A stretch of 64,000 nucleotides of DNA from positions 1-64,000 of the forward strand of contig CAJXSF010000012.1 in NCBI GenBank assembly GCA_913061515.1, written 5' to 3'. A program made the position numbers and the translations under genes. The first letter of the stretch is position 1, and each line of letters starts with the position of its first letter. Under the pieces are notes generated by a model, which saw nothing but the letters and a program-made list of their open reading frames with translations, had not been told where the DNA came from and made no database searches. Source of the stretch: an uncultured Gammaproteobacteria bacterium. Lineage in GTDB: Bacteria > Pseudomonadota > Gammaproteobacteria > Pseudomonadales > Pseudohongiellaceae. Shown here piece after piece: positions 51,865 to 54,048 of this stretch.

Positions 51865-52257
51865 TCAGTTTTCGATCTTCGTAAATATCGCTTGTTGGTT
51901 TTGCACGAGTGCGCAAACGAAGTGGTAGTCCGGTTGGCAGCGAGTTGAGCGCGCAACCGCTGTGCCTGCATCGCTCAGTTGCACCATAATGGTCGCTAGC
52001 ACGCCTTGGTATTCAACATTAAACGAGGCGTTTTCCCCTTGCACTCTGCCTGGGCTATTGCGCCAAATAAACCCTAGGGTCTCTACTGGCTCGATCTGAA
52101 GAAACTCGTCGCGCATTGCCACACGCAAGGTGAATAGTGACCCCTGTGCCTGCCAAACTCCCTCCCAGCGCTCATCGGCGTAGGTGCTCGTGCTCATGCA
52201 AGCTGTGGCCGCAATTACGCAAAGAGCTGCACGATAAGCCTTCATAAAGATTTTCAC
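51865..52257 (-). CDS. Small exported protein of unknown function
   Basis: 130 residues with a signal peptide (AALCVIAATACMSTSTYADE). The mature part looks like a small beta-protein (WEGVWQAQGSLFTLRVAMRDEFLQIEPVETLGFIWRNSPGRV) and holds two cysteines (TRCQPDYHFVCALV) that could form a disulfide. I do not recognise a family. It lies 28 nt after nnrU on the same strand and is probably co-transcribed with it. Confidence 0.65.
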   Translation of the reverse strand: MKIFMKAYRAALCVIAATACMSTSTYADERWEGVWQAQGSLFTLRVAMRDEFLQIEPVETLGFIWRNSPGRVQGENASFNVEYQGVLATIMVQLSDAGTAVARSTRCQPDYHFVCALVQNQQAIFTKIEN

Positions 52258-52285: not shown

Positions 52286-52852
52286 TCAAAGAATAGTGCT
52301 AAGCGCAAAACCGAATAATTGACCATGAAACAATAAAAGCAAGGTATACGCAATCATTCCGAAAACAATGGCCGCGGCATCCCAGACTAGTGAGGGAGTG
52401 GCTCGCACAGTCTCTTTATTGCCAAGACTTTCAAGATAAAAGAACTTCCATAGTGCCCATAGACCAATCCCGGCAAATAGCAAGACAGAGGCTAAATCGC
52501 CGTTTGACATGAGATGGGCGCCGCCCCATACAAATACCCCTACGAGCATAGGGTGCACCATGAGCACGCGCGTGTATGAGAGCGGTAGATTGCCTGCGAC
52601 AACGAGTATGCAAGAAGAGATCATCAGCAGGTGAGTAATAGAGCGCAAATTAAATGGCGGTACCCACAACTGAACAAAGCTCGCTTGGCCCTTGCCAATG
52701 GCGAGCAAGGCGATGCTAATGACAAGCGCAATGGCTAACCCAGATTTATACAAGGTGGAGCCGTATCGAGCTTGCAATCGCGCACGCAGGCCGAGTTCTC
52801 TAAAGCTATGTAGGGCGATAAAAAGGACTAAGCCGAAAAGTAGAATTAGCAA
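52286..52852 (-). CDS. NnrU family membrane protein
   Basis: 188 residues with about six hydrophobic helices. NnrU family features: N-terminal LFGLVLFIALHSFRELGLR, HPMLVGVFVWGGAHLMSNGDLASVLLFAGIGLWALW. NnrU was named for nitrite and nitric oxide reduction in Rhodobacter, but most homologues have no tested function, and no denitrification genes are seen here. The start is TTG 52852; no in-frame ATG fits the family N-terminus. A terminator lies upstream on the same strand. Confidence 0.85.
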   Translation of the reverse strand: MLILLFGLVLFIALHSFRELGLRARLQARYGSTLYKSGLAIALVISIALLAIGKGQASFVQLWVPPFNLRSITHLLMISSCILVVAGNLPLSYTRVLMVHPMLVGVFVWGGAHLMSNGDLASVLLFAGIGLWALWKFFYLESLGNKETVRATPSLVWDAAAIVFGMIAYTLLLLFHGQLFGFALSTIL

Positions 52853-52923
52853 TGTGTTTATCCAGATGCCAAACTTGGCTTTGTTTCTAGCGACTCAGAA
52901 CAATACCCTGCCCTTACTCGAAA

Positions 52924-52964
52924 GTAAAAAAAACCGGAGAATCCGCGTGTAAGCGGTCTCCGGT
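52924..52964 (-). terminator. Strong minus-strand intrinsic terminator with no upstream gene
   Basis: On the minus strand, ACCGGAGACCGC pairs with GCGG-AT-TCTCCGGT (two-base bulge, 6-nt loop) and is followed by at least eight T. It lies upstream of nnrU and downstream of nothing annotated on this strand, so it must end a short non-coding transcript or attenuate nnrU. Confidence 0.85.
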
Positions 52965-53005
52965 AAGGGCCTGTTGAATTAGAGTTCCTTGCGTCAACTG
53001 GATTG
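52924..53005 (-). ncRNA. Candidate OxyS-like small RNA divergent from oxyR
   Basis: A minus-strand TATACT (53017-53012) would place a transcription start near 53005 and, with the intrinsic terminator, give a non-coding RNA of about 80 nt. A tandem OxyR-like site (53041-53077) lies at about -36 to -72 of that start, the position of OxyR at activated promoters. No good -35 box is seen, as expected for an activator-dependent promoter. In E. coli, oxyS is divergent from oxyR and about 110 nt. The alternative is an attenuated leader of nnrU. Position and terminator are seen; expression and function are inferred. Confidence 0.4.
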
Positions 53006-53040
53006 AAAGCAAGTATAAGGGGCTTGGGTAAATACATAAA

Positions 53041-53077
53041 ATGAATTAAAACTATTGCAGTGATATTTATAATGGAT
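53041..53077. promoter_or_regulatory. Candidate tandem OxyR-binding site and oxyR -10 box
   Basis: ATGAATTAAAACTAT (53041-53055) and ATATTTATAATGGAT (53063-53077) are spaced by exactly 7 nt and fit ATAGnTnnnAnCTAT-N7-ATAGnTnnnAnCTAT at most of the weighted positions (A1, T2, T6, A10, A14, T15; C12-T13 only in the first). A perfect TATAAT (53068-53073) for oxyR lies inside the second half, which would allow autorepression. Confidence 0.5.
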
Positions 53078-53142: not shown

Positions 53143-54048
53143 ATGAACCATTTACCCACGACTAAGCAACTTCGCTACTTTGTGGCGCTCGACCAAATTG
53201 GACATTTCGGCAAGGCGGCGGACGCTTGCTTTGTTTCACAACCCGCCTTCAGTGTTGCGATTCGAGAGTTAGAGAACACGCTGAACATCCAGCTTGTGGA
53301 TAGAACCAATAAGAATGTGACGGTGACTAGCCTAGGCCGCGACATTGCCACGCAGGCGCGCCAGGTGTTACGAGATCTAGAAGAGCTAGTCGATATCGCA
53401 CAAGGCAACCAAAAACCCCTCACTGGGCAATTAAAGCTCGGAGTGATCCCAACGATCGCGCCTTTCTTATTGCCACGCTTGCTGCCGGCTTTGCGCAAGT
53501 CCTATCCGGATTTAAAACTGTATTTGAAAGAAGACCTCACCGATCGTGTGTACTCTAGTTTGATGGATGGCGAGCTAGACCTTATTTTGATCGCCCTGCC
53601 CTATGAGCTGCGCAATGTCACCGAGATGCAATTGTTTAAAGATCATTTTTATTTAGCGCATCAAGCTAAGAGTACGCTGGTAGACCCCTTGCATCACCAA
53701 GTCAGTGAGTTGCCCGAAGATAGCATCTTACTGCTAGAAGATGGGCACTGTATGCGTGATCATGCACTATCGGCATGCAGTATTAAAAATGCTAACAAAG
53801 TCAGTAAAATTACTGCGACTAGTCTTTTGACATTGGTTCAGATGGTGGATGCTGATTTAGGGGTAACGTATTTGCCAGAGATGGCAATTGGTTCGTCGTT
53901 ATTACGCAACACCCGCATTAAAACGACGGCGCTCGAAAACGATAGTTTTCGCGATATTGGCCTTGTGTGGCGCAAAGCAAGCACACGTAGCGAAGAGTTT
54001 GAGCTGCTAGGGCGTTTTATCAAGGATAACTATCAGGCAAGCAAATAG
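53143..54048 (+). CDS. oxyR: Peroxide-sensing LysR-type regulator OxyR
   Basis: 301 residues. HTH at residues 5-60 (TKQLRYFVALDQIGHFGKAADACFVSQPAFSVAIRELE). The regulatory domain has the redox pair C203 and C212 in LLEDGHCMRDHALSACSI, aligning with E. coli C199/C208 and the conserved LEDGHC-RD motif. Oxidation by hydrogen peroxide forms the disulfide that activates transcription of antioxidant genes such as ahpCF. The upstream region carries an OxyR-like site and a TATAAT, consistent with autoregulation. A GGGGGAG ribosome-binding site precedes the ATG. Confidence 0.93.
   Translation: MNHLPTTKQLRYFVALDQIGHFGKAADACFVSQPAFSVAIRELENTLNIQLVDRTNKNVTVTSLGRDIATQARQVLRDLEELVDIAQGNQKPLTGQLKLGVIPTIAPFLLPRLLPALRKSYPDLKLYLKEDLTDRVYSSLMDGELDLILIALPYELRNVTEMQLFKDHFYLAHQAKSTLVDPLHHQVSELPEDSILLLEDGHCMRDHALSACSIKNANKVSKITATSLLTLVQMVDADLGVTYLPEMAIGSSLLRNTRIKTTALENDSFRDIGLVWRKASTRSEEFELLGRFIKDNYQASK

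Follow-up and report, generated by a model that had tools for sequence, protein, structure and literature searches.

Does the DNA upstream of oxyR in a Pseudohongiellaceae genome encode a small RNA (sRNA) that works as OxyS does in Escherichia coli? The question arose from an earlier note on the stretch analysed here (64,000 nucleotides, hereafter the window), which had described a strong minus-strand terminator with a bulged stem, at least eight T and no gene feeding it, a tandem OxyR-like site near this terminator, a minus-strand TATACT between the two, and a geometry like that of E. coli oxyR/oxyS. We recovered each of these elements (Table 1), and comparison with E. coli gave the same layout, in which the candidate RNA is divergent from oxyR and an OxyR-type site is common to both. 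We consider it likely, well short of certain, that the region encodes an ~80-nt stand-alone sRNA that is activated by OxyR and acts in trans, OxyS-like in its working yet belonging to a separate family.

Table 1. Features of the oxyR-divergent region and its neighbours (positions in the window)
Feature	Coordinates	Strand	Evidence
nnrU-like gene, TTG start, downstream of the terminator	52286..52852	-	PF07298, 134 bits
Possible -10 (TATTGT) of the downstream gene's own promoter	52900..52905	-	TATNNT at the corresponding position of most relatives
Predicted OxyR-divergent small RNA, ~80 nt	52926..53005	-	Promoter and terminator positions; conservation in 25 genomes; covariance model R1 match at 52928-53001
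Intrinsic terminator, 12-bp bulged stem (52933-52964) and eight U	52926..52964	-	Fold z -3.6; compensatory changes in stem
Mostly unpaired conserved stretch AACAGGCCCUU, directly 5' of the terminator	52965..52975	-	CCCU[U/C] in 25/25 sequences
-10 hexamer TATACT of the predicted sRNA promoter	53012..53017	-	TANNNT at fixed spacing in 24/25 intact loci
Weak -35-like hexamer TTTATG, abutting the OxyR site, 17-nt spacer	53035..53040	-	Sequence and inference
Predicted OxyR-type tandem site, common to sRNA and oxyR promoters	53041..53077	.	15/20 consensus positions; motif matches in own genome; core in all 29 loci
oxyR promoter-like TTAAAA-16-TATAAT inside the OxyR site	53046..53073	+	Promoter scan, 10 of 12
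oxyR, LysR family, redox cysteine pair C203/C212, GHCMRDHALSAC	53143..54048	+	NCBIfam; Pfam HTH_1 and LysR_substrate

The terminator can be read directly from the sequence. On the minus strand the hairpin runs ACCGGAGACCGC-UUACAC-GCGG-AU-UCUCCGGU and is followed by eight U, which correspond to the A-run at 52926-52933 on the plus strand. A 116-nt minus-strand stretch folded with an energy of -29.4 kcal/mol, a value that none of 200 shuffles equalled. The hairpin was absent from the list returned by a simple terminator scan of the window, presumably because its stem is bulged. No gene feeds it, as nnrU begins downstream and only the 5' region of oxyR lies upstream. We placed the 5' end of the predicted RNA 7 nt downstream of the -10 hexamer (+/-2 nt) and its 3' end within the U-run; predicted lengths in relatives range from ~55 to 125 nt. 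The unpaired stretch directly before the hairpin is likely a base-pairing, anti-Shine-Dalgarno-like seed. Many of the RNAs also carry a Shine-Dalgarno-like GGAAGG (AAGGAA in the window, within 52976-53000 of the minus strand), which is not followed by a conserved open reading frame (ORF).

The promoter region was compared with the OxyR consensus ATAGnTnnnAnCTAT-N7-ATAGnTnnnAnCTAT. The match at 53041-53077 was the best of the 64-kb window, in which 0.23 matches of this quality would be expected. Across the 3.2 Mb genome, a looser motif shaped on this site matched without mismatch only here, in part because of how the motif was built, and had three one-mismatch matches elsewhere, one of them directly upstream of katG. 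An OxyR-type site directly upstream of this catalase-peroxidase gene lies at ~1500-1573 of L151, and katG is likely an OxyR target. The spacing of the sRNA promoter is narrowly fixed: measured from a fixed reference point in the OxyR site, the distance to TANNNT is 30 or 31 nt at all but one of the 25 intact loci, and the spacer between -10 and site is near random identity (0.56 vs 0.52 random, in the window's genus). The TANNNT is missing at L008, L009 and L038. A weak -35 would be expected of an activator-dependent promoter, and the promoter-like hexamers of oxyR within the OxyR site are consistent with autorepression.

We further surveyed 137 Pseudohongiellaceae genomes, of which 29, in three of eight genera, carry this OxyR subtype. 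Whether relatives with oxyR also retain the promoter-terminator pair had been set beforehand as a test of the idea, and the outcome was favourable: the whole unit is kept upstream of oxyR in 25 of the 29 loci, from all three genera, and its stem covaries. Retention in 25 genomes indicates more than chance. The core of the OxyR site was recognised in 29/29 loci. Promoter and terminator are both gone at L008 and L009, and the terminator is lost at L037 and degenerate at L038, so that the unit is not essential. In the stem, changes on both sides were found in six of eight consensus pairs (22 sequences), with a covariation score of 0.463 vs 0.189 for shuffled and at most 0.139 for slid structures, controls that correct only partly for relatedness. 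As a separate observation judged by eye, a monooxygenase-like frame or remnant adjoins the sRNA between oxyR and the nnrU-family ORF (L003, L007, L008, L009), and at L008 and L009 it stands where other loci have the promoter and terminator of the sRNA.

Conservation is concentrated in the seed region and the stem and is modest outside them. CCCU[U/C] stands directly 5' of the terminator in every one of the 25 sequences, and CCCC occurs in the terminator region of 15; in the window species, as in three of its close relatives, the terminator loop has no CCCC. The seed segment was anchored on its own motif, which makes its identity partly a matter of construction, and the preceding 18 nt give a fairer figure: 0.74 vs ~0.53 random in the window's genus, and 0.64 in Pseudohongiella. 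When 392 Pseudomonadales genomes were searched with the covariance model, E fell below 1e-4 only for this family, beside this oxyR, and the 13 weak matches retrieved elsewhere had no adjoining oxyR. The best reading is of a family confined to one Pseudohongiellaceae lineage that arose independently of OxyS.

The protein encoded beside the predicted RNA has the LysR fold and the CX8C redox cysteine pair by which OxyR is recognised, and both cysteines are invariant across 17 relatives. Its best NCBIfam match is OxyR, at 231 bits; this score lies under the 329-bit equivalog cut-off, as would befit a divergent lineage of OxyR. The sampled sRNA-bearing OxyR proteins formed one group, with support of 100/100, in a tree of 44, and OxyR of this type is only distantly related to that of E. 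coli. A second OxyR-like type (~42-46% identical) was seen at L021-L030 and at G023:C20:61356-62246, with a rubrerythrin gene divergent from it in several genomes; G023 encodes both types.

How might such an RNA work? OxyR oxidised by peroxide would activate the sRNA promoter, with its weak -35, from the shared site, and from the same site it would restrain oxyR itself. The transcript would end at the strong intrinsic terminator, whose U-tail suits Hfq, and the exposed CCCUU stretch would most likely pair in trans with the ribosome-binding sites of target mRNAs; in most relatives the C-rich terminator loop may pair with such sites as well. What would be looked for in the sequence of a trans-acting, Hfq-dependent sRNA is found here, namely a promoter, a U-tailed terminator, an exposed seed and Hfq in the genome. 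Hfq is present in the window's genome (G000) and in all 12 genus relatives searched, and the sRNA is probably Hfq-dependent. Transcription, peroxide induction, Hfq dependence and target pairing are what we infer from this anatomy. When seed complements were sought ahead of ATG in 14 genomes, no target was convincing and no common start region stood out; the exact matches that recur near ATG within the genus look like coding sequence.

The lack of a target from those 14 genomes would also suit a terminator that just insulates the next gene, or a promoter and terminator left over from a lost divergent gene and yielding a short transcript without function in trans. Many relatives have a Redoxin-family or Dps-like gene in the slot, so the pair could be such a relic, and the terminator is lost or being lost in 4/29 loci. 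However, an insulator needs neither the CCCU[U/C] that all 25 sequences share nor the C-rich loops that most have, and the sequence next to them is near random identity; the -10 is kept, as is its spacing, and neither is in decay. We therefore regard an insulator or relic as unlikely. That the RNA encodes a small peptide, with the conserved GGAAGG as its Shine-Dalgarno sequence, is very improbable: the GGAAGG-like element does occur in many sequences, but most of the 25 RNAs, including that of the window, have no ORF of at least 8 codons, and the others share no peptide beyond near-identical relatives.

Promoter, terminator and nnrU also follow one another in this order on one strand, and in the window's genus almost every locus has an nnrU-family ORF next. 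These facts would fit a 5' leader of nnrU in which the terminator serves as an attenuator. In most loci of Pseudohongiella and the third genus, however, the next gene is a different one, a homologue of the small-protein gene that stands second in the window's genus. Past the terminator and before the gene, most relatives have a further TATNNT (in most Pseudohongiella loci TATACT), which makes a separate promoter for the downstream gene probable, and no conserved alternative anti-terminator fold was found. Since the next gene varies by genus and mostly has its own promoter-like site, the predicted sRNA is not simply an nnrU leader, a reading to which we give little credence; the alternative of readthrough into nnrU, named in the earlier note, is weakened on the same grounds. 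The stand-alone sRNA is probably a separate transcript. The small-protein gene itself (51865-52257, minus strand) is conserved among relatives, where it follows either nnrU or the sRNA itself, and had no Pfam or NCBIfam match.

Where could an OxyR-activated RNA have come from? In other members of this OxyR lineage the divergent slot often holds a gene for a Redoxin-family peroxiredoxin or a Dps-like ferritin; one member has a cytochrome c peroxidase gene there and several have none of these genes. Pfam confirmed the family of one representative per kind, and the remaining genes were grouped by eye from sequence. Such Redoxin and Dps-like genes are as expected for an OxyR-activated promoter. 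Because relatives often hold peroxide-defence genes in this slot, it is plausibly an old OxyR-activated one that now yields RNA. Searched with the covariance model, the loci of deeper relatives gave no significant trace of the RNA. We propose, tentatively and at somewhat less than even likelihood, that an OxyR-controlled slot gave rise to a peroxide-responsive regulatory RNA for a second time, independently of OxyS, when the gene for a peroxiredoxin or Dps-like protein disappeared but its promoter stayed. The statement on a peroxide-responding sRNA that the title of Krieger et al. 2022 reportedly makes would parallel such a second origin. If true, a second, unrelated OxyR-linked small RNA would occupy the genomic position of OxyS, in a lineage of which a member can be cultured. 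One could then test whether promoters that sense peroxide have repeatedly exchanged an enzyme for a regulatory RNA, and whether the resulting RNAs have come to share targets.

We found no report of this oxyR-adjacent Pseudohongiellaceae RNA in the literature. Among known systems, the CcsR RNAs of Rhodobacter are base-pairing sRNAs with C-rich seeds. The predicted RNA resembles them in its unpaired C-rich stretch and in the C-rich loop, both suited to Shine-Dalgarno pairing, whereas its control and genome position are unlike theirs; in sequence the two were compared by Rfam scan only. The oxyR-peroxiredoxin and oxyR-dps arrangements, in which the two genes are divergent or adjacent, share with the window locus the divergent slot and an OxyR-type promoter region, in a layout seen in relatives of the window OxyR, and differ in that a predicted non-coding transcript stands here in place of an enzyme gene. 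In Vibrio cholerae, oxyR adjoins gprx (PMC11975290).

Membership of OxyS (RF00035) is ruled out by covariance-model and sequence comparison in both directions. An Rfam scan of the window and eight relatives gave no match, RF00035 included (gathering score 75 bits; E. coli oxyS, the positive control, reached 139.5 bits), local alignment of seven sequences to E. coli OxyS was no better than shuffles, and model R1 scored only 3.5 bits on E. coli oxyS (E 1.1). These comparisons agree with the earlier remark that the sequence has no evident identity with OxyS. Taken together, the conserved unit, the covariation and the absence of OxyS similarity support the proposal of an analogous, non-homologous OxyS-like RNA; this support covers anatomy and inference only. 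The OxyS homologues given in PMC5793797 are enterobacterial. In contrast to its lack of a sequence match and the distant relationship of its OxyR, the predicted RNA shares with OxyS of E. coli and other enterobacteria a position divergent from oxyR, a shared OxyR-type site, a similar length, an intrinsic terminator and a host with Hfq.
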